Assembly (NCBI GenBank): GCA_029269725.1
Contig: JARJHS010000001.1
Coordinates: 682,001-746,000, forward strand
DNA from: Pollutibacter soli
GTDB lineage: Bacteria; Bacteroidota; Bacteroidia; Chitinophagales; Chitinophagaceae
Length of the DNA stretch: 64,000 nucleotides
Reading direction: 5' to 3'
The first letter of the stretch is position 1. Each line of letters begins with the position of its first letter. Below, piece after piece: positions 1,509-19,652 of this stretch. A program made the position numbers and the translations under genes. The notes under the pieces were generated by a model. It saw only the letters and a program-made list of their open reading frames with translations. It did no database searches and was not told the origin of the DNA.

Positions 1509-4262
1509 GTGCTAAAGAGAAAATACTGGTTAATTCCCCTGGTCATCGTTATTGCTATTGCAGCATTTTCCTTCCTGCTTTCAGCGCCTGCAGTAAGTTA
1601 TAATACGGATATCAAACCAATCCTGAATAAAAAATGTATTACGTGCCATGGCGGTGTGAAAAAGAAAGGCGGCTTCTCATTGCTCTTCAGAGATGAAGCA
1701 CTGGATACTACAGAGTCTGGAAAACGGGCGATTGTACCAGGCGATCCCGATGCGAGTGAAATGATACGAAGGTTGACATTAAAGGATGATGATGAAAGAA
1801 TGCCCTATCATAAGGAGCCTTTGTCTGAGCATGAGATCAATTTGCTGAGAAGGTGGATTAAAGAAGGAGCAAAATGGGGCGATCACTGGGCATACGTTCC
1901 CGTTCAGCAGCAGAAAGTGCCGGAGCAGGAATCATTTTTTGGATTGATCTCGAAAAAAGATCCATGGGTTAAAAATGATATTGATGCCTTCATTCGACAA
2001 AAGCTTGAAGAAAATAAACTGAAGCCAACCGCAGAGGCAGATAAGAGAACACTATTGCGCCGAGTTTCTTTAGATCTGACCGGATTGCCTGCACCCAAAA
2101 AAATAGCTGATCAGTTTCTTGGTGATACTTCATCAGAAGCGTATGAAAGGCTTGTTGACACTTTGCTTGCATTACCACAATATGGTGAACGATGGACGGC
2201 TATGTGGCTCGATCTTTCCCGTTATGCTGATACCAAAGGTTATGAACGTGATGATAGTCGTTCCATCTGGCGCTACCGCGACTGGCTGATTAAAGCTTTT
2301 AACGAAGACAAACCCTATAATCAATTTCTCACTGAACAATTAGCTGGCGATCTATTGCCAAACGCAACCGACGAACAAATTCTTGCTACTGCTTTTCATC
2401 GGAACAGTATGACCAATGATGAAGGTGGAACAGACAACGAAGAATTCCGTATCGCAGCTATTATTGATCGTGTGAATACCACCTGGGAAGTATTAATGGG
2501 TTCCACGTTTGCATGCGTGCAATGTCATAGTCATCCTTACGATCCATTTAAGCATGATGAGTATTACAAGTTCATGGCTTACTTTAATAATTCACGAGAT
2601 GAGGATACCTATGCTGATTATCCGTTGTTTCATGAGTACAAGAAAAAGGACAGTACCGTTTTTGAGAAACTGAAAAGTTGGTCAACCAGCAATCTTTCCA
2701 GTGAAGATGCCAATGAGATAACATGGTTTTTAAAAACATGGCAACCTGCAATTAACGGGCTTACAGCTGATCAGTTTGTCAACAGTGAGCTTTCAGATAC
2801 CAAGTGGCTCTTAATGAGGAAAACTTCATCAGCACGCTTGAATCATATTGATCTCACCAACAAAAACCAGATGTTAATCCGGTACATGGCATGGCCCAAA
2901 GATGGTGAACTTACGCTCTGCCTCGACAGTTTGAATGGTACTGAAATCGCAAAAATCAAGATCCCGAAAGCCAATAAAGGTTGGGATTTTCTAAATTCTG
3001 CAATTACTCCAACTTCGGGTATTCATGATGTTTATCTGAAATATTACAGCAAAGAACTCAAAAAAGAAATTGATAACGGTTTGCAATTCGATTGGTTTTA
3101 TTTCACGAATCCATTCCCTGGGAAGGATAAACCAGGTTTTGATTCAGCCAGTTCGTGGTATGATAGTTTGCTTCGTTCACCAAATGTTGAGATTACCCCC
3201 GTGATGCTGGATAACCCGGATTATCTCAAACGAAAGCAACATGTATTTGTACGAGGAAACTGGATGGTTTCCGGTGACGAAGTTACTCCCGGCGTACCAG
3301 GCTCACTGACACCACTGCCCGAAAATGCGCCAGCCAACAGGTTGGGGCTTGCTGCGTGGATCACCGATCCAAAAAATCCATTAACCGCACGAACGATGGT
3401 GAACAGGTTATGGGAGCAGATTTTCGGACAGGGCCTTGTAGAAACACTTGAAGACATGGGTACGCAGGGAATTCCTCCAACGCACCGCGAATTATTGGAT
3501 CATCTCTCCTGGCAATTTGTACACGAATATAACTGGAGTGTAAAAAAACTGGTGAAGGAAATGGTGATGTCTGCCACTTATCGCCAGGATTCCAGAGTGA
3601 GTAAAGAATTGCTTCAACAAGATCAGTTTAATAAATGGTATGCGCGTGGGCCGAGAGTGCGCTTGAGTGCGGAACAGATTCGCGACCAGGCGCTGGAGGT
3701 GTCAGGTCTATTGAGTAAAAAAATGTATGGGAAAAGTGTGATGCCTTATCAGCCCGGAGGTATCTGGCTATCTCCTTATAATGGTCGTTTATGGATAAAA
3801 AGTTATGGTGAAGACCAATACAGGCGCGCATTGTACACATATTGGAAAAGAACGGCTCCCTATCCTTCTATGATCAGCTTTGACGGAGCTGCACGCGAAG
3901 TTTGTACTGCAAGAAGAGTACGCACAAATACCCCGTTACAGGCGTTGACAACGTTGAATGATTCTGTTTATGTTGAAGCGTCCCGACACCTTGCGTGTGA
4001 TCTTCGAAAAGAATATAAAGATGATGTGAAGAAAATGATATCAGCCGGTTACGAAAAAATTGCAGGAAAGCCGATTCCTTCAAACCGATACCTGATACTT
4101 GAACGATTGTACAACACTTCATATATTAAATTCAAAGCAGACAGCGTCAGTACCTGTGAAATGATTGGAATTCAAAATGAGTTCAATGAACCTGTGACTG
4201 CAGCAATGGTGGTTGTCACTAATGCGATGTTGAATCTCGATGAAGTGATTACAAAAAACTGA
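1509..4262 (+). CDS. Membrane-anchored c-type cytochrome with DUF1549 and DUF1553 domains (PSCyt1-PSCyt2-PSD1)
   Basis: A 917-residue extracytoplasmic protein. Residues 5-26 form an N-terminal membrane anchor or signal. A heme-c motif CITCH lies at 43-47 within a Planctomycete-type cytochrome domain, followed by DUF1549, which carries a second CxxCH (CVQCHSHPYDP, from residue 336), and a C-terminal DUF1553 domain (around PKNPLTARTMVNRLWEQIFG). These three domains normally occur together in this order, so the gene looks complete. Proteins of this type are abundant in Planctomycetes and are usually paired with DUF1501 proteins, as here (next gene 4 bp away). Biochemical role is not established; electron transfer coupled to oxidation of an exported substrate is an inference. 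Translation appears to start at GTG 1509, the only start that keeps the anchor. Confidence 0.88.
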   Translation: MLKRKYWLIPLVIVIAIAAFSFLLSAPAVSYNTDIKPILNKKCITCHGGVKKKGGFSLLFRDEALDTTESGKRAIVPGDPDASEMIRRLTLKDDDERMPYHKEPLSEHEINLLRRWIKEGAKWGDHWAYVPVQQQKVPEQESFFGLISKKDPWVKNDIDAFIRQKLEENKLKPTAEADKRTLLRRVSLDLTGLPAPKKIADQFLGDTSSEAYERLVDTLLALPQYGERWTAMWLDLSRYADTKGYERDDSRSIWRYRDWLIKAFNEDKPYNQFLTEQLAGDLLPNATDEQILATAFHRNSMTNDEGGTDNEEFRIAAIIDRVNTTWEVLMGSTFACVQCHSHPYDPFKHDEYYKFMAYFNNSRDEDTYADYPLFHEYKKKDSTVFEKLKSWSTSNLSSEDANEITWFLKTWQPAINGLTADQFVNSELSDTKWLLMRKTSSARLNHIDLTNKNQMLIRYMAWPKDGELTLCLDSLNGTEIAKIKIPKANKGWDFLNSAITPTSGIHDVYLKYYSKELKKEIDNGLQFDWFYFTNPFPGKDKPGFDSASSWYDSLLRSPNVEITPVMLDNPDYLKRKQHVFVRGNWMVSGDEVTPGVPGSLTPLPENAPANRLGLAAWITDPKNPLTARTMVNRLWEQIFGQGLVETLEDMGTQGIPPTHRELLDHLSWQFVHEYNWSVKKLVKEMVMSATYRQDSRVSKELLQQDQFNKWYARGPRVRLSAEQIRDQALEVSGLLSKKMYGKSVMPYQPGGIWLSPYNGRLWIKSYGEDQYRRALYTYWKRTAPYPSMISFDGAAREVCTARRVRTNTPLQALTTLNDSVYVEASRHLACDLRKEYKDDVKKMISAGYEKIAGKPIPSNRYLILERLYNTSYIKFKADSVSTCEMIGIQNEFNEPVTAAMVVVTNAMLNLDEVITKN

Positions 4263-4266
4263 TCCC

Positions 4267-5787
4267 ATGGGAAGAACAGAAGATAAACAACAACGATGGT
4301 TAAAACAGGCAAGCGAGCATGCACTTCGCAATGTTACAAGGCGTCATTTTCTGAAAGAAAGTCGCACGGGCATCGGCATGATGGCACTGGGTTCATTTCT
4401 TGCAGGATGCGATTGGTTGGGTTCGAAAAAAGATGTTATATCCGCACCACCCATGTTTGACCCCGCGCATCCGATGATTCCTCGTTCGCCACATTTCACG
4501 GGAAAAGCGAAGTCAGTTATTTTCCTGCATATGGCTGGTGCGCCATCGCAACTGGAGTTGTTCGATTACAAACCTGATCTCCATAAACTCGACGGAAAAG
4601 ATTGTCCGGAATCATTTCTTGAAGGAAAAAAATTTGCATTCATCCGTGGTGTTCCCAAAATGTTAGGACCACAATCTGCATTCAAACAGTATGGTGAAAG
4701 TGGCATCTGGTTATCAGATAATCTTCCGCATTTCCGTAGTGTTGTTGACGAGGTGAGTATTTTGAAAGGCGTAACTACTGATCAATTTAATCATGCGCCC
4801 GCACAGCTTATGATGCATAGCGGAAGCCCGAGACTTGGCAGGCCAAGTATGGGGTCCTGGGTGACTTATGGTTTGGGATCTGAGAATGCAAATCTTCCGG
4901 GTTTCGTTGTACTCACGTCTGGTGGAAACAATCCGGATGCTGGCAAAAGTGTATGGGGAAGTGGATTTTTACCTTCTGTTTATCAGGGAGTTCAATGCAG
5001 GTCTGTTGGTGAACCGGTATTATTTATTAAAGATCCTGCAGGAATGGATCGTGAATTGCGTGGTGCCTCGATCGATGCAATTAATGAGGTAAACAAGCTA
5101 GCATACGAAGAATTCGGTGACCCTGAAATTCTGTCGAGGATTTCGCAGTACGAGATGGCGTATAACATGCAGATCGCCGTACCGGAAATTATGAATATCA
5201 ATGATGAGCCACAGTATATTCACGATATGTATGGTACAAAACCAGGAAAAGCTTCATTTGCGAATAATATCCTGCTTGCAAGAAAGCTCGTTGAAAAAGG
5301 AGTTCGTTTTGTTCAGCTTTTTGATTGGGGATGGGATATGCATGGTACGAGTGAAGATGGTGCTATTGATGTAGGCTTCATCAACAAGTGCAGATCTGTA
5401 GATAAGGCAATGACGGCTCTCATCCTGGATTTAAAACAACGTGGTTTGCTGGACGAAACACTTGTTGTCTGGGGTGGTGAATTCGGTCGCACACCTATGC
5501 AGGAAAACCGCGAAGGCAAACAGAATCCATTCAAAGGTCGTGATCACCATGCAGATGCTTTCTCTATGTGGATGGCAGGTGGTGGAATAAAGAAAGGCAT
5601 CAGCTTCGGCGAGACAGATCCTATCGGTTATAATGTTGTAGATGGAAAAGTTTCGGTATACGATATACAGGCGACTATTTTAAATCAATTGGGTTTTGAT
5701 CACGAAAAACTGACTTATGAATTCCAGGGCCGACCATTCCGGCTTACTGATGTTGCCGGGAACGTGATACAGGAAATAGTTGCATAG
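4267..5787 (+). CDS. DUF1501 protein, Tat-exported putative lipoprotein
   Basis: This 506-residue protein belongs to the DUF1501 family, which is related to the alkaline phosphatase/sulfatase superfamily. The N-terminus has a twin-arginine motif (TRRHFLK, residues 24-30) followed by a hydrophobic stretch ending in a lipobox-like LAGC (45-48), so it is probably folded in the cytoplasm, exported by Tat and lipid-anchored. Family-type blocks are visible: GAPSQLELFDYKP, HAPAQLMMHSGSPRLGRPSMGSW, GWDMHG, and the C-terminal VVWGGEFGRTPM and GRDHHADAFSMWMAGGGIKKG. It starts 4 bp after the cytochrome gene, so the two are almost certainly co-transcribed. DUF1501 enzymes have no settled reaction; the His/Asp-rich blocks suggest a metal-dependent hydrolase. 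Confidence 0.9.
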   Translation: MGRTEDKQQRWLKQASEHALRNVTRRHFLKESRTGIGMMALGSFLAGCDWLGSKKDVISAPPMFDPAHPMIPRSPHFTGKAKSVIFLHMAGAPSQLELFDYKPDLHKLDGKDCPESFLEGKKFAFIRGVPKMLGPQSAFKQYGESGIWLSDNLPHFRSVVDEVSILKGVTTDQFNHAPAQLMMHSGSPRLGRPSMGSWVTYGLGSENANLPGFVVLTSGGNNPDAGKSVWGSGFLPSVYQGVQCRSVGEPVLFIKDPAGMDRELRGASIDAINEVNKLAYEEFGDPEILSRISQYEMAYNMQIAVPEIMNINDEPQYIHDMYGTKPGKASFANNILLARKLVEKGVRFVQLFDWGWDMHGTSEDGAIDVGFINKCRSVDKAMTALILDLKQRGLLDETLVVWGGEFGRTPMQENREGKQNPFKGRDHHADAFSMWMAGGGIKKGISFGETDPIGYNVVDGKVSVYDIQATILNQLGFDHEKLTYEFQGRPFRLTDVAGNVIQEIVA

Positions 5788-5832
5788 ATTAATTCAATTC
5801 TTTTTCAACCCATTTTTAATTCAATTTATTGC

Positions 5833-6756
5833 ATGCCTTTTTCAAGAAGAAAATTCATCAAAGGTGCAGGTCTTGTGAGTTCATCGCTGGCCTTACATCA
5901 ACTCGAAAGTTTTTCGTCTCCAATTCGATATGAGGATCAAAGACCTGGATTTGAACTGAAAATTATGGCTACGAATTGGGGCTTTGCAGGAGATACTGAC
6001 AGCTTTTGCAAGAAAGCAAAAAAAGAAGGTTATGATGGCATTGAAGTGTGGGTACCCGGTGAAGAAAAAGTAAGAACTGAGCTCAAACAAATTGTTGAAG
6101 CCAACGGACTTTTGCTGGGACTTCTTGCCGGTGGCAGTGATTCTGCTTTTCAGAAACACGAGGAACAATTTTCTGCTGCGATAAAAGCAGCAACTGCCAT
6201 GAAACCGGTGTATATTAACTGTCATTCCGGTCGTGATTATTTTAGTTTTGATCAGAATAAACAGCTGGTTGATATCACAACAAAAGCAAATACCGAAACC
6301 GGAGTTCCGATATATCATGAAACTCATCGCAGCCGAGCCATGTTTGCTGCACACATTACACGAAATTTCGCTGAGAAGATTAAAGAACTTCGTTTAACCT
6401 TCGACGTTTCCCACTGGTGCAATGTTCATGAAAGTCTTTTGGCTGACCAGGCAGAAACTATGGATATTGTTCTGCCTCGTGTGGAACATATTCACGCCCG
6501 CATTGGTCATCCTGAAGGTCCTCAGGTAAATGATCCACGTGCACCCGAATGGCTGAATGCTGTAAATGCGCATTTCAGCTGGTGGGATAAAGTGATCGAG
6601 CGTAAAAAGAAAGAAGGCAAACTCATGACGATACTCACGGAATTTGGTCCGCCGGATTATATGCCAACGCTCCCGTATACGCGACAACCGCTTGGTGCCC
6701 AATGGGAGATCAATGCATACATGATGCACTTGCTAAGAAAAAGATATGCATCCTGA
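5833..6756 (+). CDS. Tat-exported sugar phosphate isomerase/epimerase-like TIM-barrel protein
   Basis: The 307-residue protein opens with a Tat signal (SRRKFIKGAG) followed by SSSLALHQ, then a xylose-isomerase-like TIM barrel: NWGFAGDTDSFCKKAKKEGYDGIEVWVPG, YINCHSGRDYFSF, YHETHRSRAMF, LTFDVSHWCNVHES, HIHARIGHPEGPQVNDP and LTEFGPPDYMP. The His/Asp/Glu placement agrees with a divalent-metal site of AP endonuclease 2/IolE-type isomerases. Its position 45 bp after the DUF1501 gene and before the DUF2231 cytochrome gene suggests one operon acting in the periplasm on a sugar or polyol derivative. The substrate cannot be deduced. The start is the ATG at 5833 that gives the full Tat signal. Confidence 0.85.
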   Translation: MPFSRRKFIKGAGLVSSSLALHQLESFSSPIRYEDQRPGFELKIMATNWGFAGDTDSFCKKAKKEGYDGIEVWVPGEEKVRTELKQIVEANGLLLGLLAGGSDSAFQKHEEQFSAAIKAATAMKPVYINCHSGRDYFSFDQNKQLVDITTKANTETGVPIYHETHRSRAMFAAHITRNFAEKIKELRLTFDVSHWCNVHESLLADQAETMDIVLPRVEHIHARIGHPEGPQVNDPRAPEWLNAVNAHFSWWDKVIERKKKEGKLMTILTEFGPPDYMPTLPYTRQPLGAQWEINAYMMHLLRKRYAS

Positions 6757-6777
6757 TTCCAAAGCAACCCATCAGTT

Positions 6778-8223
6778 ATGAGTGCATTCTTCGGAGGTTT
6801 TCATCCGCTTATAGTCCATCTGCCTATCGGCATTTTGCTGGTGGCAATTTTGTTTGAATTGATTTCAGGAATTAATAAGTACCGAGCCCTTCAATCAGCC
6901 ATACTTCCACTACTTTTCCTTTCAGCAATCACAGCAATCATTTCGTGTATTACCGGATTATTACTTGCATCCGGAGGTGAGTATGATATTGAAATACTGA
7001 CAAGGCATAAATGGATGGGCATCATCACAGCCTTTTTTTCAGCAAGTGCATGGGTATTAAAAAAAGATAATTTCAGATTTCGATATAGCAGTACAATCTA
7101 TAAAGGGCTTTGTATTTTTCTACTCGCAACAATTGTGGTGACCGGACACCTCGGTGGAACGCTTACTCACGGTTCCGGTTTTCTCACGAAAAATCTGCCG
7201 GAATCAGTAAAAACGGCAATAGGAATTGACGTTGCAGAAGTTTCGGAAACCCCTATCACCAATGTACAGGAAGCAAAAGTTTACGATGATCTTGTGATGC
7301 GCATCATCAATAAGAAATGCGTCAGCTGTCATGGTCCAGATAAACAGAAAGGAAAACTTCGACTGGACCGCGAAGAATTTATTTTGAAGGGAGGGAAAGA
7401 TGGTTTGGTTATCAAGGCTGGTTCACCTGAAGAAAGCGAACTGATTAAACGAATCCTGCTACCGTTGAATGATGATGATCATATGCCGCCAAAAGAAAAA
7501 AAACAATTAACTCCTGATGAACTGGAACTGCTACATTGGTGGATAAAAACCGGCGCTGATTTCAACAAAAAGGTGATGGAATATGCGCAAACTGACAGTA
7601 TCAAATCGATGCTTCTTGGCTTTCAAACCAGCGGGCAGATTTCGCCAAAAGAAGAATTGATTATCCCAAAAACACAGGTCGCTGCTGCACGGCTCACTCT
7701 ACTTGATAGCTTAAAAAAGAGCGGCGTTCTTGTTCAAAAAATCGATCCCAATAATAACTACCTGTCAGTAAGTTTTTTAAACACAAGAGGTAGTTCAGAT
7801 TCAATATTGCATTTAGTGAGTGACCTGAAAGACCAGGTACTTTTTCTTAACCTGAGTGGAAAAAAAATTTCAGACAGCTCTGTGCAAAAGATCGGAGAAC
7901 TCCAGGCTTTGCGCAAACTTTATTTACAGTATAGTGATGTCAATGACACAACAATTTCAAAATTGAATTCATTACAGAATCTGGAGTATCTGAATCTTGT
8001 CGGAACTCCGGTAACTTATAAAGGATTGGAAAGTATTAAAGATCTCAGATCATTAAAACAGCTATTTCTTTTTCAATCCGGTGTAACTCCATCAAGTTAT
8101 CAAAATGCTCAGCTACTCTTTCCAAAAGCCGGTATCGACACCGGTGGTTACCAGGTTCCTATTTTGGCGTCAGACACAACAATTTATAAATTGCCTAAGA
8201 AGGAGAACCAAAAGAAGCCATAA
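6778..8223 (+). CDS. DUF2231 membrane domain fused to c-type cytochrome and leucine-rich repeats
   Basis: A 481-residue multidomain protein. Residues 1-130 contain about four membrane helices with the DUF2231 pattern (GGFHPLIVHLPIGILLVAIL, HLGGTLTHG). A linker leads to a cytochrome c domain with heme motif CVSCH at 181-185 and KGKLRLDREEFILKGGKDG, resembling the PSCyt1 domain of the first gene of the cluster. The C-terminal third carries leucine-rich repeats such as LQALRKLYLQYSDVND and LQNLEYLNLVGTPVTYKG. It lies 21 bp after the TIM-barrel gene. The membrane domain could link heme electrons to the respiratory chain and the LRR could bind a partner; both are inferences. The 3' end overlaps the convergent kinase gene by 29 bp. 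Confidence 0.85.
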   Translation: MSAFFGGFHPLIVHLPIGILLVAILFELISGINKYRALQSAILPLLFLSAITAIISCITGLLLASGGEYDIEILTRHKWMGIITAFFSASAWVLKKDNFRFRYSSTIYKGLCIFLLATIVVTGHLGGTLTHGSGFLTKNLPESVKTAIGIDVAEVSETPITNVQEAKVYDDLVMRIINKKCVSCHGPDKQKGKLRLDREEFILKGGKDGLVIKAGSPEESELIKRILLPLNDDDHMPPKEKKQLTPDELELLHWWIKTGADFNKKVMEYAQTDSIKSMLLGFQTSGQISPKEELIIPKTQVAAARLTLLDSLKKSGVLVQKIDPNNNYLSVSFLNTRGSSDSILHLVSDLKDQVLFLNLSGKKISDSSVQKIGELQALRKLYLQYSDVNDTTISKLNSLQNLEYLNLVGTPVTYKGLESIKDLRSLKQLFLFQSGVTPSSYQNAQLLFPKAGIDTGGYQVPILASDTTIYKLPKKENQKKP

Positions 8224-9259
8224 CGCTTTGAAATTCCGGCTTTATTTTCCTGTATTGTTCCAGCAGACAGATTTGGTTCAATGCCCGAACCAGGTTATGA
8301 TTTTCATACCTGGCTCCATAGTATTGATCATTGTTCAGATGATCAGTCATGAAACGCAATGCCTGCATGTAAATCATAAACTCACCTGAATAAAAGCAAT
8401 ATCGAATCTCTTTTTCCGAAAGACAAACTGACATTTTTTCGAGATAACCCTTCAGTATCGCTTCAACATATTCCGTGCGTATGGAGATCTTGCTAAAATC
8501 TTTTTCTTCTTCATCAGCGGGCGAAAGATACGTTCTCATCATATCTCCGAGGTCGCTGATAAAATAGCCAGGCATCACTGTATCAAGGTCGATCACACAA
8601 ATTCCTTTATCCATATCATCAAAAAGAATATTGCTGATTTTGGTGTCGTGATGAATGACGTGCTGTTTAAAGTCTTTGTCGGATTTGATCAATTCGAAAG
8701 TTTCAACAATTGAATACCCTTTTGAAAACAAATCAATATCGTTCTGATTCTTTTTCAATCTTTCCTTACTTCCGTTTTTTATGGCATACTGGAACTGAGC
8801 CCATCGATGTGAAAGATCATGAAAACCAGGAATCGTCAGATTAAGTTTTTCTGCATTGAAGTGACTGAAAGCAGCGGTAAAGTTTCCGAACTGACGTGCA
8901 GCTTCATAGGCCTGTTGCGGTGTTTCACATCGTGTGAACGCGTGTGAATTCCGGACAAAATGGAACATCCTGAACGTTTCGCCTTTGAGCTGCACAAACG
9001 GCTTACCGGTCAGGGTTTTTATAGGAAGCGGTAAAAAATACGCCGGATGAAACTCGCGTAAGTGCTGTTCCAGCAGGTCCATATTTGCGGCAATATCTCC
9101 AGGTTTTTTAAAAACGGAGGTGTTGACTTCCTGCAAAACATAGGATCCAACACCACCAGCTTTCACCAGCCATGTTTGGTGAATTAAACCGCTTCCTAAA
9201 GGGCTGAGTTCAAATTGCTCCGGATCAAAACCAAAGGAATGTAATACCTCCTGCATCAT
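8195..9259 (-). CDS. Phosphotransferase of the APH family, N-acetylhexosamine 1-kinase-like
   Basis: About 354 residues with an aminoglycoside-phosphotransferase/choline-kinase fold. The catalytic loop HHDTKISNILFD and metal-binding VIDLDTVMPGYFISDLGDMMR closely resemble, from memory, the corresponding motifs of bifidobacterial N-acetylhexosamine 1-kinase (NahK), where DTVMPG is characteristic. The probable role is anomeric phosphorylation of N-acetylhexosamine or a related sugar in the cytoplasm. A longer reading frame begins at TTG 9310, overlapping the serA stop, but the ATG at 9259 (or 9256) is preceded by AAAGGA about 8 bases upstream and gives a family-like N-terminus (MMQEVLHSFGF). It follows serA on the same strand, likely co-transcribed, and overlaps the DUF2231 gene tail to tail. 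Confidence 0.8.
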   Translation of the reverse strand: MMQEVLHSFGFDPEQFELSPLGSGLIHQTWLVKAGGVGSYVLQEVNTSVFKKPGDIAANMDLLEQHLREFHPAYFLPLPIKTLTGKPFVQLKGETFRMFHFVRNSHAFTRCETPQQAYEAARQFGNFTAAFSHFNAEKLNLTIPGFHDLSHRWAQFQYAIKNGSKERLKKNQNDIDLFSKGYSIVETFELIKSDKDFKQHVIHHDTKISNILFDDMDKGICVIDLDTVMPGYFISDLGDMMRTYLSPADEEEKDFSKISIRTEYVEAILKGYLEKMSVCLSEKEIRYCFYSGEFMIYMQALRFMTDHLNNDQYYGARYENHNLVRALNQICLLEQYRKIKPEFQSVMASFGSPS

Positions 9260-9306
9260 AATTTTTTCCTTTGCTTTTATAAATCCGGATCTTTCAGAAA
9301 TAAGGG

Positions 9307-10545
9307 TCAATACAGCAACCTGGTCTTAATAGTTTCCTTAACATTTTTCAAAAGATTGAGAGCGTCCCGGGACAATTTTTTGTCAACGTCCAGCACCACA
9401 TACCCGATTTCATCGTTGGTCTTCAGGTACTGACCCAATATATTGATCTTATGTTCAGACAGTTTACTATTGATCTCGGAAAGTACGCCAGGCACATTGT
9501 TGTGAATATGCAGGATGCGATGTGTCCCTTCCTGCGGTTGCAGGCTGATGGGAGGAACAGTATGAGAGCCTATACTCATTCCCATTTCCAGGTACTGAAA
9601 CAATTTGCTGCTGACATCTTCCCCGATGTTCTTCTGTGCTTCCTCAGTGGAACCGCCGATATGTGGTGTAAGAAGCACATTAGGAAGGTCCTGCATAGGC
9701 GTCTGGAAAACATCTCCATTTTTCTCCGGTTCAACAGGGAAAACATCGATAGCAGCGCCACCCACTATTCCATCAAGAATAGCTTTGCGGAGCGCTTCCA
9801 GCTCTACTACTTCGCCACGGGCGTAGTTGAGAAGGATCGAACCTTTTTTGAAATGTTTAAGCAGATTTTTATTGATTATATTTTTAGTCTGCGCTGTTTC
9901 GGGAACATGAAGCGTGATAATATCAGCTTTGCTGACCAGGTCTTTGAGTGACTTTACTGAGGTTGCATTTCCCAGCGGAAGTTTAGTTACTGTATCGTAG
10001 AAAATCACTTTCATTCCAAAAGCTTCGGCGAGCACGCTCACCTGTGACCCGATATTTCCATAACCGATAATACCGAGTGTTTTGCCACGCAACTCGAAGC
10101 TGCCTTTTGCATCTTTCATCCATATACCTTCATGAGCTGCTTTATTCTTGGCGGGTATTTTACGGATAAGCATAATCGAAGCGCCGATTACCAGTTCGGC
10201 CACAGAACGCGTATTGCTGTATGGAGCGTTAAAAACGACCACACCCTTCTGCGTAGCCGCTTTCAGATTCACCTGGTTGACGCCAATACAAAAACATCCG
10301 ATCGCCTGCAATTTATCTGCGTGATCGAGAACTTTTTTTGTGATCTGCGTTTTCGACCGGATGCCCAGCAAATGCACATCTTTAATCTCTTCAATAAGCG
10401 CTTCTTCTGTTAAAGCACCGCCAATTTTCCTGATATCTGTGTACCCCGCTTCTCTGAAAAGATTAACAGCGGTTTCACTGATATTCTCTAAAAATAAAAT
10501 CTTGATCTTCTCCTTTGGGTAACTAGTACTTTTCTTCTCTGGCAT
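9307..10545 (-). CDS. serA: D-3-phosphoglycerate dehydrogenase-like 2-hydroxyacid dehydrogenase with ACT domain
   Basis: A 412-residue protein with the short (type 2) SerA layout: a substrate-binding half, a Rossmann domain with GYGNIG at 161-166, the arginine block LLNYARGEVVE, the catalytic His in LTPHIGGSTEEAQ, and a C-terminal ACT domain (THRILHIHNNVPGVLSEINS) that usually binds serine for feedback inhibition. The expected reaction is NAD-dependent oxidation of 3-phosphoglycerate, the first step of serine synthesis; enzymes of this layout may also use 2-oxoglutarate. The kinase-like gene follows on the same strand. The ATG at 10545 is about 72 bp from the divergent hydrolase gene. Confidence 0.9.
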   Translation of the reverse strand: MPEKKSTSYPKEKIKILFLENISETAVNLFREAGYTDIRKIGGALTEEALIEEIKDVHLLGIRSKTQITKKVLDHADKLQAIGCFCIGVNQVNLKAATQKGVVVFNAPYSNTRSVAELVIGASIMLIRKIPAKNKAAHEGIWMKDAKGSFELRGKTLGIIGYGNIGSQVSVLAEAFGMKVIFYDTVTKLPLGNATSVKSLKDLVSKADIITLHVPETAQTKNIINKNLLKHFKKGSILLNYARGEVVELEALRKAILDGIVGGAAIDVFPVEPEKNGDVFQTPMQDLPNVLLTPHIGGSTEEAQKNIGEDVSSKLFQYLEMGMSIGSHTVPPISLQPQEGTHRILHIHNNVPGVLSEINSKLSEHKINILGQYLKTNDEIGYVVLDVDKKLSRDALNLLKNVKETIKTRLLY

Positions 10546-10617
10546 AGTAGTTGTACGTATCTTTAGCGCGAAAATAATAATAATCTATATCTGTCGTTAT
10601 CCAATAACGATACCTAT

Positions 10618-11787
10618 ATGCAAAACCGCTTTCTATCCGCCCTTATTGTAGTATTACTATCTGGTTGTTATGCAACTACGGATAAGTATGAATTAAAGAG
10701 AGACCCGGCAGATACGCTGGCCATTACCCCTGCAATAATCCCCGGTAATATTGATCAGCAGGAATTCAGGAAAATTTTTAATGCTGCCGACAACTTCTAT
10801 GAATCATCGTTGAAGCCTTCCCGTTTCAATGGTGGGATCCTGGTAGCAAAGAAGGGACAGATCGTTTTTGAAAGCTATGATGGGTATCAGAATCATTGGA
10901 GCAAAGAACTGATTGATTCAGCAACTTCATTTCACCTGGCATCGGTTTCAAAAACCTTCACCGGAATGGCGGTGCTGAAACTCTGGGAAGAAGGTCGCCT
11001 TCAACTCAATGACAATGTTGCCAATTATCTTCCCGGATTTCCATTTGAAGGTGTAACTATCAAAACACTGCTGAATCATCGCAGTGGTTTACCCAACTAT
11101 GTGCACTTCATGGAAGAACTGGGATGGGATAAAAAGAGGATCGTTCAGAACCAGGATATCCTTCAGTTTATGATCGACAACAAGCAAAAACTGAATGTTG
11201 CAAAAGCTGATCGTCGTTTTTCATACAGCAATACAAACTATGCGTTGCTTGCATTGATCATTGAAAAAGTTTCAGGAAGAACTTATACAAACTATCTCCA
11301 GGAAACATTCTTCCTTCCGCTGGGTATGAATCATACTTTCGTTTTCTCTATTGAAAAGGCAAAAGATGTATTACCATCATATAACTGGAGAAACAAACAG
11401 GAGGCATTTACTTTCCTCGATGCAGTTAACGGAGATAAAAATATTTACAGCACACCACGCGACCTGCTTAAATGGGATTATGCTCTCTCCTATGGCAATC
11501 TCTTCAAGCAATCTACCTTAGATAGCGCTTATGCCGGATACAGTTTCGAAAAACCAGGTATCAAAAATTATGGACTTGGCTGGCGAATGTATCAATACCC
11601 GAATGGTAAAAAAATCATCTATCACAATGGATGGTGGCATGGCAACAATACAGTATTCAGCAGGCTCACCGGAGATTCTGCAACTGTAATTGTATTGGGC
11701 AACAAATACAATCGTCGCATTTACGATGCAAAGAAAATTTTCAGCGCATTTGATGGCTATTCCACAGAAGCTGAAGGCGATGAGTGA
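10618..11787 (+). CDS. Serine hydrolase lipoprotein of the beta-lactamase class C/PBP4* family
   Basis: 389 residues with a lipoprotein signal (LLSGC, Cys17), so it should be anchored in a membrane facing the periplasm. Active-site motifs of the class C beta-lactamase fold are present and ordered: SVSK (Ser109, Lys112), YSN (203-205) and HNG (336-338). Upstream of the Ser motif is FNGGILVAKKGQIVFE, and LNHRSGLPNY follows, both typical of this large family of esterases, D-aminopeptidases and carboxypeptidases. True beta-lactamase activity should not be assumed. It diverges from serA and is followed 47 bp later by the NAD(P)HX repair gene. Confidence 0.88.
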   Translation: MQNRFLSALIVVLLSGCYATTDKYELKRDPADTLAITPAIIPGNIDQQEFRKIFNAADNFYESSLKPSRFNGGILVAKKGQIVFESYDGYQNHWSKELIDSATSFHLASVSKTFTGMAVLKLWEEGRLQLNDNVANYLPGFPFEGVTIKTLLNHRSGLPNYVHFMEELGWDKKRIVQNQDILQFMIDNKQKLNVAKADRRFSYSNTNYALLALIIEKVSGRTYTNYLQETFFLPLGMNHTFVFSIEKAKDVLPSYNWRNKQEAFTFLDAVNGDKNIYSTPRDLLKWDYALSYGNLFKQSTLDSAYAGYSFEKPGIKNYGLGWRMYQYPNGKKIIYHNGWWHGNNTVFSRLTGDSATVIVLGNKYNRRIYDAKKIFSAFDGYSTEAEGDE

Positions 11788-11833
11788 TCTTTCATCAGGG
11801 GATTGACCTATTTTTAGGAACAGTTCCGAGTTG

Positions 11834-13339
11834 ATGAAAATTTTTTCCGCAGAACAAATCAGGGCATGGGATCGGTTTACGATCGCGAATGAACCCATCA
11901 GTTCCATTGATTTAATGGAAAGAGCGGCCATACGTTGCGTTGAGTGGCTGCTTGAACATTTTCCCAGGCAAAACGACTATTTTATTTTCTGTGGCACTGG
12001 TAACAATGGTGGCGATGGCCTGGCCATTGGAAGAATGCTGAGTGTAAAGGGGAAAAGAGTGTACTACTTCATTATCAATCCAAAAAACAGGGAACTCTCA
12101 AGTGATTGTTTAATTAATCTCAATAGAATTAAAGAAACCGCTGCTAAAGGGATTAATAGTGAACAGCTGCCTTCTATTCCAACTGAGGCAATTTTAATAG
12201 ACGCAATTTTCGGGACTGGTTTAAGCAAGTCGCCCGAAGGAAAAATCGCAGAATTGATTAATGAAATCAATGCTCTTCCCAACAAAAAAATTGCGATTGA
12301 TCTACCCAGCGGATTGCTTGCTGATCAATGGTCAGGTACAGATGCCATTATCAGGGCGGATTTTACGCTTAGTTTCCAGTCCCCAAAGCTGGCTTTCATG
12401 ATTCCTGAAAATGAAAATTATACGGGCCAGACAGTGATTCTTGATATTGGCCTGCATGCCGGATTCGAATCATCAAATGATAGTAAGTACAGTTATTCAG
12501 ATTGGAAATCAATCCAGCCGCTTTTAAAGAAAAGAAAATCATTTTCGCATAAGGGGACTTACGGACACGCTGCCCTCATGAACGGATCTTATGGAATGTT
12601 AGGTGCAGCGATCCTGAGCAGTCGCGCTTGTCTGCATTCCGGTGTGGGAAAACTCTCGGTTTTCTGTTCAGAAAACTCCTACCCTATTCTGCAAGTCGCT
12701 GTGCCGGAAGCTGTGTTTGAGATTCATAATACTGATCTATGGGCGTCCATTCTGGACGGATCTGAAAAGTTCCAGGCGATCGGAGTTGGGTCAGGCTGGG
12801 GGAAAAATGACCAGTATACATCGATACTCGGCACCCTATTCAGGCAACAATTGCCCATTGTCATCGATGCCGATGCGATTAATTGTATCGCAGATCATCC
12901 AGGTCTGATACGAGAAATTCCTTCTCATTCTGCGATAACACCACACGTCAAAGAGTTTGAGAAGCTCTTCGGCAAATCTGAAAATGGGTATGCCAGAATA
13001 CAGTTGGCAATTGAAAAGGCAAAAGAGCTTAAAATCCATATTATACTTAAAGGTTACCGGACTTTGGTTGCATTACCGGATGGAAGGGCGGTTTTTAATA
13101 GTACGGGCAATCCGGGAATGGCAACTGCGGGTACGGGGGACGTATTGACAGGCATGCTTACATCCTTTCTGGCCCAGGGTTATTCTTTTGACGATGCCTG
13201 TGTGCTGGCAGTATATGTCCATGGCATGGCCGGGGACCTGGCAGCGAAAACGTTATCTCAGGAGGCCATGACGGCCCTTGATCTTATCTCATTCATTTCC
13301 ACGGCCATATTAAAATTTGATGAGAATTGGCTTTTTTGA
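11834..13339 (+). CDS. nnr: Bifunctional NAD(P)H-hydrate epimerase / ADP-dependent NAD(P)H-hydrate dehydratase
   Basis: A fusion of about 501 residues. The N-terminal YjeF_N domain (epimerase) shows FCGTGNNGGDGLAIGRML and AIFGTGLSKSPEG; the C-terminal YjeF_C/carbohydrate-kinase-like dehydratase domain shows KGTYGHAALMNGSYGMLGAA, VIDADAINCIA, TPHVKEFEKLFG and the signature GNPGMATAGTGDVLTGML. The enzyme repairs hydrated NADH and NADPH, using ADP for the dehydration. Both domains look complete, so the fusion is the standard bacterial form. The open frame could begin at TTG 11831, but the adjacent ATG at 11834 (MKIFSAEQIRAWD) is preferred. Confidence 0.93.
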   Translation: MKIFSAEQIRAWDRFTIANEPISSIDLMERAAIRCVEWLLEHFPRQNDYFIFCGTGNNGGDGLAIGRMLSVKGKRVYYFIINPKNRELSSDCLINLNRIKETAAKGINSEQLPSIPTEAILIDAIFGTGLSKSPEGKIAELINEINALPNKKIAIDLPSGLLADQWSGTDAIIRADFTLSFQSPKLAFMIPENENYTGQTVILDIGLHAGFESSNDSKYSYSDWKSIQPLLKKRKSFSHKGTYGHAALMNGSYGMLGAAILSSRACLHSGVGKLSVFCSENSYPILQVAVPEAVFEIHNTDLWASILDGSEKFQAIGVGSGWGKNDQYTSILGTLFRQQLPIVIDADAINCIADHPGLIREIPSHSAITPHVKEFEKLFGKSENGYARIQLAIEKAKELKIHIILKGYRTLVALPDGRAVFNSTGNPGMATAGTGDVLTGMLTSFLAQGYSFDDACVLAVYVHGMAGDLAAKTLSQEAMTALDLISFISTAILKFDENWLF

Positions 13340-13358
13340 GAACAAAGTTTTGAAAACA

Positions 13359-13389
13359 TTTGCATTTCAGCCGAAAGTTTTTAGTTTTG
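13359..13389 (+). promoter_or_regulatory. Bacteroidota-type promoter for the T9SS cargo gene
   Basis: TTTG at 13359-13362 is followed after 19 bp by TAGTTTTG at 13382-13389, a full match to the Bacteroidota -33/-7 consensus (TTTG, 19-20 bp, TAnnTTTG). Transcription would start near 13395, giving an unusually long leader of about 220 nt that contains three degenerate repeats. Confidence 0.65.
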
Positions 13390-13404
13390 TAGGCCATACT
13401 AAAC

Positions 13405-13527
13405 GGTGCTACGCCTCATCCCTTTCCTATTTTAGACCTTTTCGTCTAGGGTGCTAAGTTAAAGTTCCATTCCTATTTCAGACCTTTTACAGCAGGTGCT
13501 TTCAAATCCTTCCTATTTAAGGCCTCC
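13405..13527 (+). repeat. Three degenerate repeats in the leader of the T9SS cargo gene
   Basis: Each unit has GGTGCT (13405, 13450 and 13495, exactly 45 bp apart) followed 9-14 bp later by TTCCTATTT (13424, 13470 and 13510) and then AGACCTTTT in the first two units or AGGCCTCC in the third. No open reading frame spans them. They sit downstream of the predicted promoter and so would be in the mRNA leader. They may bind a protein or form alternate RNA structures; no known riboswitch class was recognised. Confidence 0.6.
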
Positions 13528-13618
13528 AATTATCACCGAACATCCTCTGAACCATTTTCCGAAATGTTTTTGCGATTAGGCAATGATGTTTCCCTACATC
13601 TAAAAAAAAGAAATTAGT

Positions 13619-15988
13619 ATGAAAGAGTTCTACACCAGAATTTTCCGTTCCCAGGTATTCCTGTTTGCTTTTTTGTTAATCGGCTCTGCCTCTTATGCGC
13701 AGCTAACCATTACCGTTACCTCCACGGCAGACTCCGGACCTGGTACTCTACGGGAGGCCATTGAAACGATAAACGCAAACCCGGCGCCTCCGGCCGGAAA
13801 TTATATCAATTTTGATTTTTCACCTGGTACTGCTCCGTTTATTATAACGCTGGCATCTCCATTGCCGGCCATTACAAAAACTATTTTCTTTAATGGATAT
13901 TCAGAACCTTCTTCTGCGGAAGGAGCCATCGGTGCACGCACGATCTCTGTACAGATTGATGGAGGTGGTTTTCCTAACCCTATTTTCGATGTACAGTCTG
14001 ATCTATGCAATTTCGCAGGTCTTAGCCTTGTAAATTCCGGCGGTCATGGAATCAGCTTTGCTGATTATACAAATGGCCACAGGGTTTGGGGATGTTATTT
14101 TGGTGTGGCTGCTGATGGCGTTACAAGTACCGGCACTGCAATTGCAGGCTCTGGTATCTACCTTGGTTATTCACCAGGTGCGCAGGGTCAATTTGGAAGA
14201 TCCATCATAGGAACCCAGGACCTGGGTTACGACGAAGGTGCAACACGTGCGAACGAAGGAAACGTCTTTGGTAACTGCGCGACTGGTATCGAAAGTCTTG
14301 GTCAGCAAAATATTCGAATCCGCGGAAACTGGGTCGGTATTGCAGCTGATGGTACAACTGCAGTTCCCATAACCGGTGCAGGCATTCTTCTTAACTCTTA
14401 TACTATTGGCGGTGTGGTTGGAGCAAGTCCTGATGATACATTGAGCACCTTTCTAACGAATTATGTAGGTAACGCGGTTGAAGGAATCACCGTTAGAGAT
14501 ATAGCCAAATTTAATCTGGTGTCCGGTAATGTGATTGGCAATACTCCCGCCGGTGCAACAGCAGCTATCAGCGGCTCAGGGATGAGTCTCGAAAATACGC
14601 ACAATAATTCTATCGTTGGTAACACTATTGAACATGCTGTTGAAGGTATCCTTATCTGGAACAATGTCACTGCATCCATCACTGCAGGTGGTGACACTTC
14701 AGCTTCGGTAAGTAACAGCATCATTGCAAACACAATAGATTCAAACTTTGTTGGTATCAAGTTTAGTAATTTCAGTGCAACTGTGCCCGTTACTAAAAAC
14801 ATTATCGGTAATGATGGAATAGGCAACAATGCGGTTTTTGAAGGAAATACAATTACTAACAGTTCAAGCGGATCCGGGCTCATTATTGACGATGCTTCAG
14901 GTGGTCCGATCACATTGAACCGCATTTCAGCGAATTCTTTTGAAAACAACAATGGCAGTGGTGGGCCGGGCGTTAGTATTGCACTTAACTCAACTAATAC
15001 TCTTAACCCGATCAATTGCGCAAGCCCAACAACAGGTCCGAATCAAAATCTGAACAGACCAGTCATTGATTCAGTACAGGTGATCGGAACAAACCTGCAC
15101 ATCAAAGGATGGGTAAACGCAGGACTTACAATGGATTTCTATGTAACCACAGGCGCAACAACTTTTGGTTATGCAGATCGTCCTTTCGGTGAATTAACTA
15201 CATATCTTTTCAGTGCGACCGAAGGAACTCCTGGCATTGATTTCGGTGGCGGAACTTCACTTTCTGAAAGTGATGGTGTTGGTGGAACATGTACACTGAA
15301 TAATTTTGAATTTGTTGTTCCGCTGGCTTCTGTTCCTGGTTTTACAGTTGGGGCTAATGTTGCAGCGATCGCAATGGATGCTGCTGTTGGTCCTGCAAAT
15401 ACATCAGATTTCAGCGCGCTTGTATTGAGCGTTCTGCCGGTTACTTATCTGTCATTCACCGGCCAGGTTGCAAACAACGTTGTTAACCTGAAATGGCAGA
15501 CAGCAACTGAAAGCAACAGTAGTCATTTTGATGTACAGCGTAGTGCTGATGGTTCGAACTTTGTAACTATCGGAACAGTATCTGCAGCTGGTAATTCACA
15601 GATCACTCAGAACTATGGATTTACTGATGCTGCTCCATTGAAGTCTGCAGTATCGTATTACAGATTGAAACAGGTTGACCTGGATACTAAGTTTGAATAC
15701 AGTAAAACAATCCTGGTGAAATCATCTGGCAGCAACAACAGGTTCGTGATCTCTCCGAATCCGGTTGTTTCCAACCTCGTGATCAATCTGGTATCTGATG
15801 TGAAAGAAACAGTATCAATCCGTCTGATCGACCAAAGCGGACGAATAGTAAAATCAATAAATCAGAATCTGACCAATGGTGCCAACCAGGTTCGTCTCAA
15901 TGATCTCAGCACCTTGCCTTCTGGTGTGTATGTACTCCAGATTGCTGGTAAATCAACTTTGATCAACGAAAAAATCATGAAACAATAA
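13619..15988 (+). CDS. Secreted parallel beta-helix protein with T9SS type A C-terminal domain
   Basis: 789 residues. Residues 1-27 are a Sec signal peptide (FLFAFLLIGSASYAQ). Next is a region beginning ITVTSTADSGPGTLREAI, typical of adhesin-like beta-helix proteins, then many right-handed beta-helix turns with repeated N/G patterns (GNVFGNCATGIE, NNSIVGNTIEHAVEGI). About residue 600 onward has LPVTYLSFTGQVANNVVNLKW and an FnIII-like segment, ending in the T9SS sorting domain (FVISPNPVVSNLVIN ... SGVYVLQIAGKSTLINEKIMKQ). It should cross the outer membrane by type IX secretion and be released or surface attached. Function of the helix (adhesion or polysaccharide binding) is unknown. A terminator-like hairpin follows. 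Confidence 0.9.
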   Translation: MKEFYTRIFRSQVFLFAFLLIGSASYAQLTITVTSTADSGPGTLREAIETINANPAPPAGNYINFDFSPGTAPFIITLASPLPAITKTIFFNGYSEPSSAEGAIGARTISVQIDGGGFPNPIFDVQSDLCNFAGLSLVNSGGHGISFADYTNGHRVWGCYFGVAADGVTSTGTAIAGSGIYLGYSPGAQGQFGRSIIGTQDLGYDEGATRANEGNVFGNCATGIESLGQQNIRIRGNWVGIAADGTTAVPITGAGILLNSYTIGGVVGASPDDTLSTFLTNYVGNAVEGITVRDIAKFNLVSGNVIGNTPAGATAAISGSGMSLENTHNNSIVGNTIEHAVEGILIWNNVTASITAGGDTSASVSNSIIANTIDSNFVGIKFSNFSATVPVTKNIIGNDGIGNNAVFEGNTITNSSSGSGLIIDDASGGPITLNRISANSFENNNGSGGPGVSIALNSTNTLNPINCASPTTGPNQNLNRPVIDSVQVIGTNLHIKGWVNAGLTMDFYVTTGATTFGYADRPFGELTTYLFSATEGTPGIDFGGGTSLSESDGVGGTCTLNNFEFVVPLASVPGFTVGANVAAIAMDAAVGPANTSDFSALVLSVLPVTYLSFTGQVANNVVNLKWQTATESNSSHFDVQRSADGSNFVTIGTVSAAGNSQITQNYGFTDAAPLKSAVSYYRLKQVDLDTKFEYSKTILVKSSGSNNRFVISPNPVVSNLVINLVSDVKETVSIRLIDQSGRIVKSINQNLTNGANQVRLNDLSTLPSGVYVLQIAGKSTLINEKIMKQ

Positions 15989-16022
15989 TTGGGGAAATTC
16001 CCATGGTTGAATGAATAAATCT

Positions 16023-16057
16023 GTAGGGACGCAAATCAATGCGTCCCTACTTCTTTT
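16023..16057 (+). terminator. Perfect 11-bp hairpin with T tract (terminator or REP-like palindrome)
   Basis: GTAGGGACGCA (16023-16033) pairs perfectly with TGCGTCCCTAC (16040-16050) over a 6-base loop and is followed by TTCTTTTT. It can serve as a rho-independent terminator for the T9SS cargo gene. The GTAGGGACGC...GCGTCCCTAC core also resembles dispersed REP-like palindromes known to me from several bacterial genomes, so it may be a repeat recruited as a terminator. Confidence 0.7.
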
Positions 16058-16148
16058 TGTCCGGGAACAGGGATTCGGCCTGAATTTCAGGCGTTTTTCA
16101 GGTGTTAAAAAAAATAACATTTCCTTGCATATTTCATTTTGAAAGCTA

Positions 16149-16156
16149 TATTTTTG
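16149..16156 (+). promoter_or_regulatory. Candidate -7 box for hppA
   Basis: TATTTTTG fits TAnnTTTG. The only -33-like element is CTTG at 16124-16127, with a gap of 21 bp, so the match is partial. Transcription would start about 65 nt before the hppA ATG. Confidence 0.4.
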
Positions 16157-16227
16157 CCGCCCTGCCAAGGCTGAAAACCAGCTCTGGAAATTGACCCGAT
16201 AACATTAAAGTTTAAGACTCTTTGCAC

Positions 16228-18543: not shown

Positions 18544-18567
18544 AATATCAATGTCTGAAAACAAAAG

Positions 18568-18598
18568 AGCCTTTCCGTCGGGAAAGGCTTTTTTATTT
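18568..18598 (+). terminator. Rho-independent terminator after hppA
   Basis: AGCCTTTCC (18568-18576), a GTCG loop and GGAAAGGCT (18581-18589) form a perfect 9-bp stem followed by TTTTTATTT. It lies 25 bp after the hppA stop and just before the convergent ppk2 stop. Confidence 0.88.
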
Positions 18599-18606
18599 AC
18601 TGATCG

Positions 18607-19509: not shown

Positions 19510-19600
19510 TTAATCTATTTTGGTATTAATATAGATCATTTCATGTATAAGCTACAGTATACTCAGTTTACAATAAAAAATAAAAAAGTATGACTGGTAA

Positions 19601-19648
19601 ATTGTTTTTACGAACACAATCGTATATTTGATTACGATAAAAATCGTA
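19601..19648 (+). promoter_or_regulatory. Promoter overlapped by a BlaI-type operator
   Basis: ATTG (19601-19604), 18 bp, TATATTTG (19623-19630) gives a Bacteroidota promoter. ATCGTA (19619), TACGAT (19633) and ATCGTA (19643) form two interlocked inverted repeats: ATCGTA-N8-TACGAT and TACGAT-N4-ATCGTA. They cover the -7 box and predicted start site and end 4 bp before the blaI-like ATG, exactly where an autorepressor would bind. Confidence 0.65.
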
Positions 19649-19652
19649 TACT

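Follow-up and report, generated by a model that had tools for sequence, protein, structure and literature searches.

A conserved four-gene unit of Bacteroidota joins a DUF1553-DUF1501 pair to an exported TIM barrel and a DUF2231 membrane cytochrome

A stretch of 64,000 nucleotides from the 6.1-Mb genome of Pollutibacter soli (contig JARJHS010000001.1, positions 682,001 to 746,000; referred to here as the window) contains, at positions 1509-8223, four genes that form a real, conserved gene unit. These genes encode a diheme cytochrome with DUF1549 and DUF1553 domains (g1), a DUF1501 lipoprotein (g2), an exported TIM barrel (g3), and a DUF2231 membrane cytochrome (g4). The anatomy of the unit provides good support for an extracytoplasmic carbohydrate module tied to membrane electron transfer. 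For its specific chemistry we offer a proposal, namely a periplasmic, membrane-linked and cytochrome-linked module for carbohydrate oxidation/elimination, to which we give an even chance of being right. The original prediction, made from the sequence alone, regarded the cluster as a strong candidate for an undescribed system. This holds for the four-gene version with the TIM barrel and DUF2231, which is a new variant, but not for the g1-g2 core, which is known in the literature but unexplained in function.

Conservation of the gene order

The four genes are co-oriented and separated by gaps of 4, 45, and 21 bp in the list of open reading frames (ORFs), as originally described, and Pfam recovered the domain families that had been named for all four. 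No family exceeded its cut-off when the cluster proteins were scanned with NCBIfam, and a promoter and terminator scan of the sequence was uninformative, with counts resembling those of shuffled sequence (18 versus 17.6, and 6 versus 7.2).

Recurrence of the cluster was assessed by searching 247 Bacteroidota genomes for g3 homologues (E ≤ 1e-20). Homologues were found in 18 genomes, and the surroundings were read in 15 of them (all except G030, G164, and G208). The order g1-g2-g3-g4 was present in 8 of these 15, P. soli included, and hence in at least 8 of the 247 genomes sampled. Eight more distant g3 matches (36-45% identity) lay outside such clusters; two of the clustered matches also had only 41-45% identity. 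Genome contigs were also scanned with the g3 alignment, which yielded at least 573 relatives; the best 80 were used, so the resulting counts cover close relatives. The four genes stood in order at 61 of these 80 loci, five having an intervening ORF (L074, L103, L110, L120, and L135). When seven further loci were added (six from sampled genomes plus the window's own; G091, on the same contig as L122, was dropped), the order was found at 68 of 87; the added loci were chosen for having the cluster, and 61 of 80 is therefore the unbiased count. Among the exceptions, seven loci lay at a contig end (L066, L086, L101, L107, L108, L112, and L129), g4 was cut off in L076 and L092 and missing from L136, and g1 was located further upstream, with other ORFs between, in L088 and L094. 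Median gaps were 9 bp for g1-g2 (69 pairs), 24 bp for g2-g3 (75 pairs), and 6 bp for g3-g4 (79 pairs). The 80 loci are not all independent (L079, L087, and L099 are near-identical places, and L086 and L092 belong to one assembly). With the same order at 61 of the 80 loci from the scan and in no fewer than 8 of the 247 genomes, the cluster is not a product of chance, and the neighborhood comparison proposed with the original prediction thus finds the four families together well beyond this genome.

Within the genus, 23 of 41 genomes had a g3 match. Nineteen stretches were read (of which L322-L324 and L328 repeat L059, L058, L060, and L133); the 13 whose g3 was taken to be of the exported type displayed the cluster or its remnant where the contig ended, whereas none was seen in the 6 whose g3 was taken to be of the distant type. 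The two records L086 and L092 are titled Beijerinckiaceae and bear this Bacteroidota-type cluster; their assembly is likely mislabelled or mixed.

Features of the four proteins

The first gene, g1 (1509-4262, plus strand), has a GTG start and encodes 917 amino acids (aa) with an N-terminal hydrophobic segment. By Pfam, its PSCyt1 domain (1635-1805, residues 43-99) holds the heme motif CITCH at residues 43-47 and M98-P99, invariant in the alignment; the DUF1549/PSCyt2 domain (1980-2597, residues 158-363) holds a second, CVQCH, at residues 336-340; and the DUF1553/PSD1 domain occupies 3336-4082 (residues 610-858). Both CxxCH motifs were invariant in the g1 alignment, and all 65 g1 proteins longer than 850 aa had exactly two, in keeping with the redox character originally proposed. 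Between DUF1549 and DUF1553 lies a β-sandwich of the carbohydrate-binding module (CBM) family CBM6 (2766-3113, about residues 420-535, edges from model strands), to which Pfam gave a weak match below its cut-off (residues 445-533, E 9.6e-5). When the whole predicted structure (pLDDT 82.6, pTM 0.84, from a 47-sequence alignment) was searched with Foldseek, the 26 PDB matches at E ≤ 0.001 were CBM6 or other CBM structures and sugar enzymes, the latter probably matching through their own CBM. A profile search of the PDB concurred on CBM6 (1w9s and 2v4v) and also matched the heme stretch of FoxE. The helical DUF1549/DUF1553 core gave no convincing structural match in the PDB by Foldseek. A relationship between DUF1553 and DUF1800, both of which adjoin DUF1501, was considered and rejected for now (hhalign E 0.17); a short helix motif looks similar in the two. 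Given that g1 exceeds the Pfam cut-offs, carries the heme motifs, and adjoins a co-oriented DUF1501 gene with a Tat-type start, the pair belongs to the PSCyt/DUF1553-DUF1501 module.

The second gene, g2 (4267-5787, plus strand; 506 aa), encodes a DUF1501 lipoprotein in which a motif resembling those of twin-arginine translocation (Tat), RRHFLK, is followed by LAGC. Among 163 DUF1501 sequences, the first Tat arginine was kept in all and the second in 161. Several comparisons point to an alkaline-phosphatase superfamily fold. Foldseek of the g2 model gave 84 matches at E ≤ 0.001 (best 4.2e-7, TM about 0.3), including LtaS, sulfatases, and phosphonate monoester hydrolase, and PDB sequence searches weakly returned LtaS and sulfatases. 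Independently of the model, hhalign of a small DUF1501 alignment against sulfatases of the same genome gave E 2.8e-4 (probability 40.9); the 163 sequences gave E 5.5e-8 (probability 94.8) against 5 sulfatases, and a comparison with 12 sulfatases gave E 1.7e-7 (probability 93.8). The aligned region is the C-terminal part, about residues 354-497 (about 354-494 in the comparison with 5 sulfatases). Seven residues, H176, D357, H359, E405, F406, R408, and H427, were invariant in all 163 proteins, and we take the conserved residues to belong to the metal sites of the superfamily. By motif (H-x-P...T/S-G versus C-x-P-x-R...T-G), H176 aligns with the catalytic Cys of sulfatases, so that DUF1501 apparently has His at the nucleophile position; E-F of DUF1501 likewise stands opposite the D-N of sulfatases in the profile alignment. 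These two apparent substitutions would set DUF1501 apart from LtaS and the S1 sulfatases, with which it shares the fold and the C-terminal region. For DUF1501 proteins of the DUF1800 type, a first alignment had no conserved His in the H176 column; a more careful joint alignment placed the His of RSHF/KSHF there in the 9 rows listed. The P. soli genome itself contains a DUF1800-DUF1501 pair (L041, G000:C32:220000-236000, positions 5736-8415).

The third gene, g3 (5833-6756, plus strand; 307 aa), encodes a xylose-isomerase-like TIM barrel (Pfam AP_endonuc_2) with a Tat-like motif, SRRKFIK. The RR motif was present in 74 of 87 g3 proteins. Among the other 13, nine had KR or RK variants (L063, L082, L086, L092, L093, L096, L105, L115, and L118), one had RR further on (L067), one lacked its start (L108), and two had Sec-like starts (L045 and L048). 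Six distant homologues outside clusters had no export signal (L049, L050, and L052-L055), and L051 was ambiguous. The Tat motifs of g2 and g3 and the CxxCH motifs of g1 (two) and g4 (one) are directly visible in the sequence, as the original prediction had said, and the conservation of the arginines agrees with its extracytoplasmic placement of the system.

Nine g3 residues (E163, H165, R166, D191, S193, H194, H219, H221, and E270) were invariant in 50 sequences, five distant non-exported homologues included, and 79 of 80 g3 proteins carried HE[TS]HRxR. An initial PDB sequence search with g3 gave no match at E ≤ 0.01. The g3 profile gave six matches up to E 10, including Art22 (8z1i, E 0.0034) and 4kw2 (E 0.0057), and reached the 3-keto-D-glucoside 4-epimerase 6wn6 at E 1.6 only. 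Part of the metal-site pattern of g3 is common to other TIM barrels of the superfamily. For the 3-keto-glycoside β-eliminases, which are also TIM barrels, the accessible text of PMC10628242 gives as metal ligands a Glu (CGE) or His (OGE) on strand 5, Asp on strand 6, His on strand 7, and Glu on strand 8, with a catalytic His two residues past the first ligand (132/134 in OGE); this pattern fits E163-x-H165, D191, H219/H221, and E270 of g3. Judged by its sequence residues, g3 has a site of the β-eliminase pattern (a TIM barrel with E-x-H, D, H, and E), and it possibly works like such an enzyme. Because no sequence relation was found, none of these enzymes being named among the six PDB matches up to E 10, we do not class g3 as a CGE/OGE member. 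Unlike CGE and OGE, g3 is exported, as judged by its motif, and linked to cytochromes by its gene context.

The fourth gene, g4 (6778-8223, plus strand; 481 aa), combines a four-helix DUF2231 membrane domain (6799-7176, residues 8-133), a PSCyt1 c-heme domain (7318-7497, residues 181-240) with the motif CVSCH, and a tail that by eye resembles leucine-rich repeats. In all 112 g4-type proteins, H9, H14, H77, H124, and H131 of DUF2231, the CxxCH residues, and M236 were invariant. Family-averaged hydropathy had four maxima, at about 21, 51, 87, and 117. Loops 1-2 and 3-4 were rich in K/R (2.7 and 2.5, versus 0.7 and 0.5 for D/E), and loop 2-3 and the tail were acidic. Hydropathy and loop charges together would place both ends outside and all five DUF2231 histidines on the periplasmic side, where they may bind heme b or quinone.

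A constant pair with a variable third partner

DUF1553 was present in 28 of 244 sampled Bacteroidota genomes. Another 79 stretches (of which L227 and L228 overlap, and L263 extends into a TIM cluster counted before) supplied 87 DUF1553-type gene calls with a minimum length of 600 aa, which were labelled by BLAST. DUF1501 was adjacent on the same strand at 83 of the 87, a g4-type gene was close in 36, and an NHL propeller was near in 11; the count of zero TIM barrels near these calls is by construction, given that TIM clusters had been taken beforehand. The g1-g2 pair is thus the constant part of the family, and the third slot varies by lineage between a TIM barrel, an NHL propeller, and nothing. 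In L113 (second cluster at 12465-19866) and L130 (second cluster at 9375-17216), tandem clusters had the TIM barrel in one and a Tat-type NHL protein in the other. For 108 DUF1501 proteins a rapid tree was built (LG+G4, SH-aLRT only, with two long planctomycete branches flagged). On it the TIM label required 2 changes (mean of 17.8 after shuffling, with none of 500 shuffles as low), and the NHL label required 13 (16.1 after shuffling; 5 of 500 as low). The two changes suggest that the TIM version is one lineage. The propeller appears and disappears across the tree, with 16 of its 17 cases in the lineage sister to the TIM lineage.

The window's genome has three more DUF1553 genes. Clusters of g1-g2-g4 without a TIM barrel were found at L038 and at L039, the latter adjoining GH42 and GH92 genes. 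At L040 (G000:C3:70000-89900, positions 3890-6307), a single ORF of 805 aa joins DUF2231, PSCyt1, DUF1549, and DUF1553 by Pfam, and this fusion naturally connects g4 with g1. Nine other gene calls matched the fusion best, eight through the DUF2231 front and the ninth (L280) cut by a contig end; DUF1501 was adjacent in all nine. About 7.5 kb from the fusion ORF, at 13820-15294, lies a DUF1501 gene split over two ORFs and possibly decayed.

Outside these genomes, tblastn of g1 against plasmids gave seven records, including two from Novosphingobium in which only the heme part matched. Singulisphaera (Planctomycetota) had two tandem g1-g2 pairs, with no DUF2231 or TIM gene annotated in that one plasmid stretch. 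Haliscomenobacter (Bacteroidota) had a c-type cytochrome gene, DUF1501, and DUF1553. Catenovulum (Gammaproteobacteria) had genes for AraC, a g4-like cytochrome (by BLAST), a 6-bladed propeller, DUF1553, DUF1501, and fucP. The description of the cluster as planctomycete-style therefore fits the g1-g2 pair and not the TIM barrel or DUF2231, neither of which was annotated in the one planctomycete stretch read.

In the accessible parts of four papers (PMC5615132, PMC2754498, PMC4452313, and PMC5122149), these domains are of unknown or merely suggested function. Rhodopirellula baltica has 41 copies of DUF1549 and as many of DUF1553 (PMC2754498). PSCyt2 genes usually adjoin a family of unknown genes, CBMs are noted in some cases, and a carbohydrate role is suggested (PMC5615132). 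The domain families of g1 are identical to those of the PSCyt1/PSCyt2-PSD1 genes of Rhodopirellula and freshwater Verrucomicrobia in the accessible text of these two papers; in the Bacteroidota cluster, however, the TIM barrel and DUF2231-PSCyt1 complete a fixed four-gene order, of which that text makes no mention. The DUF1800-DUF1501 pairs found with bacterial chitin synthase genes, as far as PMC5122149 could be consulted, likewise consist of a Tat-exported DUF1501 with a partner gene, but the partner in our cluster is a PSCyt protein, and the DUF1553 and DUF1800 profiles are those compared above. Our literature search, to which most subscription papers were out of reach, found no description of the four-gene TIM/DUF2231 arrangement. 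It also turned up no biochemistry for DUF1549, DUF1553, or DUF1501; this is of some importance, given that DUF1549 and DUF1553 are very numerous in some environmental bacteria.

Proposed function, alternatives, and gene neighbors

Neighboring genes, together with the CBM6 of g1, support the sugar-like link that was originally suggested. Among 108 operon neighbors of TIM clusters, the α-fucosidase families GH95 and GH29 had 7 and 4 matches, respectively. Among 102 operon neighbors of non-TIM clusters, neither was in the 25 commonest of 151 families, and sulfatases were the commonest (8 of 102); for TIM clusters, whose neighbors fell into 102 families, the 25 commonest included no sulfatase, the two lists having been gathered by slightly differing rules from loci that are not independent. 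Downstream of the P. soli cluster, and convergent to it, is a homologue of the N-acetylhexosamine 1-kinase NahK (8195-9310, minus strand; E 3.1e-49 over residues 25-366). Of 97 rows with TIM clusters, 14 had a NahK homologue beside the cluster (12 of 92 once repeats are removed), and in one of these (L102, Fulvivirgaceae) it was co-oriented. In five congeneric loci, the genes directly upstream of the cluster were Asparaginase_2, which is presumably glycosylasparaginase-like, and CutC (by BLAST; by Pfam for L334). Taken together, for part of the loci the neighbors suggest glycans of the glycoprotein or mucin type. Fucose as the sole substrate was considered and rejected: it is backed in a subset only, and the L-fucose permease of Catenovulum belongs to the propeller subtype.

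In the mechanism we propose, the CBM6 of g1 would hold a glycan-derived sugar or glycoside, most likely one containing N-acetylhexosamine or fucose. The g1-g2 pair, combining DUF1549/DUF1553 with the DUF1501 metal site, would oxidize it to a keto-sugar. Electrons would leave through both c-hemes of g1, reach the c-heme of g4, and enter the DUF2231 membrane domain, where histidines on the periplasmic side would bind heme b or contact quinone. The keto-sugar would be the substrate of g3, exported and metal-dependent, which would act by β-elimination or a similar lyase or epimerase step, and the freed sugar would be phosphorylated and used in the cytoplasm. A bolder version, which we consider quite unlikely, makes DUF1501 itself the dehydrogenase, a redox metalloenzyme of alkaline-phosphatase fold with His at the nucleophile site and independent of flavin, PQQ, and NAD; it would feed the CBM6 diheme cytochrome and a DUF2231 heme-b/quinone gate, and the plug-in TIM barrel or NHL propeller would set substrate use. 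If true, this would amount to a periplasmic sugar dehydrogenase system of a new kind, found across Bacteroidota and, through the core pair, Planctomycetota. The four-gene version is tractable: one of its enzyme folds can be assigned, it has a CBM and a defined membrane end, sugar-enzyme genes adjoin it, and sugar-dependent heme reduction could be assayed directly.

Several observations weigh against the proposed oxidation/elimination module. Pfam (E ≤ 0.001) found no flavin, PQQ, NAD, or molybdopterin domain in the four genes. The g2 model is of low confidence (pLDDT 63.5, pTM 0.69), and a separate hhalign of the H176 region gave the same register without significance (E 0.22), so that the match to the catalytic Cys rests on the motif. 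DUF1501 adjoins DUF1800 in 21 of 22 loci, and its role thus need not be redox. GH95/GH29 neighbors occur at about 9 of 87 loci only, and none at the window's own locus. Four loci of the TIM lineage, named below, have no g3. Finally, g1 and g2 were not beside g3 at seven loci that had upstream sequence (L073, L079, L087, L099, L123, L126, and L131); in the first five of these, close g3 relatives standing alone retain a Tat-type start, which indicates that export is not strictly tied to the cluster.

These lone g3 genes (L079, L087, and L099 being near-identical places) also favor an unlikely alternative in which g3 is an ordinary sugar isomerase or epimerase riding in the operon and the functional unit is g1-g2-g4 only. 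Consistent with such a passenger, four TIM-lineage members (L265, L267, L269, and L270) do without g3, and Pfam yields only AP_endonuc_2 for it. However, the order is kept at 61 of the 80 scan loci, the TIM label changes only twice on the DUF1501 tree, and L126 and L131 keep g3-g4 without g1-g2. A rather unlikely alternative concerns DUF1501, which would be an alkaline-phosphatase superfamily hydrolase or transferase acting on sulfated or phosphorylated glycans; the cytochromes would serve a separate redox step, and the cluster would combine desulfation or dephosphorylation with respiration and involve no sugar oxidation. The fold matches to LtaS, sulfatases, and phosphonate monoester hydrolase, the metal-type residues D357, H359, E405, and H427, and the sulfatases next to non-TIM clusters all agree with this view. 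However, the invariant His apparently replaces Cys/Ser/Thr (register by motif), leaving the usual covalent mechanism missing; moreover, those sulfatases are separate genes, and near TIM clusters they are not among the commonest families.

It is very unlikely that DUF1501 and DUF1553 are structural or envelope-organizing proteins with hemes for stability or sensing, as considered for bacteria of the Planctomycetes-Verrucomicrobia-Chlamydiae (PVC) group with intracellular membranes. To our knowledge, Bacteroidota are not noted for intracellular-membrane compartments, yet DUF1553 is present in 28 of their 244 sampled genomes, and enzyme-like invariant metal-type residues with a swappable third partner fit catalysis better. 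The structural view draws on Kamneva 2012, which connects clusters of DUF1501 to those PVC bacteria that have intracellular membranes, as cited in the accessible text of PMC4452313, and on the association of DUF1501-DUF1800 with chitin synthase genes.

Other features were noted around the clusters. The 3′ ends of g4 and the NahK-like gene overlap by 29 bases (8195-8223). Directly upstream of g1, a 102-aa ORF (1115-1423) had no Pfam match, nor any BLAST match at E 1e-8 in the 80 scan loci. AraC-type regulators occupied position -1 in 21 loci, with AraC plus cupin in the one regulator that was scanned individually. The P. soli genome has two GH29 genes, none at the cluster. In the L065 genome, the sole GH95 and 2 of 4 GH29 matches shared a contig with the cluster and lay no more than about 15 kb away, and the same was true of 3 of 3 GH29 and 1 of 3 GH95 matches in the L098 genome; contigs were matched by coordinates and 8 of the 12 loci examined had been preselected for such neighbors, so these cases are an illustration and not a test.

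Sugar-related genes were also seen near g3 homologues outside clusters. The Asparaginase_2-CutC pair occurred near the homologue of L049, with KDPG aldolase and DgoK, and GH20 genes lay beside those of L335 and L337. Signal-less homologues in L335, L336, L337, and L340 came after a GH2-type gene (by Pfam in L337, by eye in the others), and PhyH genes were near that of L336; the GH2, GH20, and PhyH neighbors hint that a related sugar pathway may run inside the cell. In L107, SDR and Amidohydro_2 genes were two and three places upstream of g1. The L122 cluster (12525-19393) was followed by Gfo/Idh, aldolase-like, second Gfo/Idh-like, SDR, ROK, and SIS genes; by look and BLAST, SDR-ROK-SIS relatives were also present upstream of L065, and the non-cluster g3 homologue L050 had SDR-ROK nearby. 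A co-oriented gene for a Na_sulph_symp (DASS-type) transporter, a possible carrier of the product, came after g4 in two genomes from another family (L045, 11079-12509; L048, 6191-7621).

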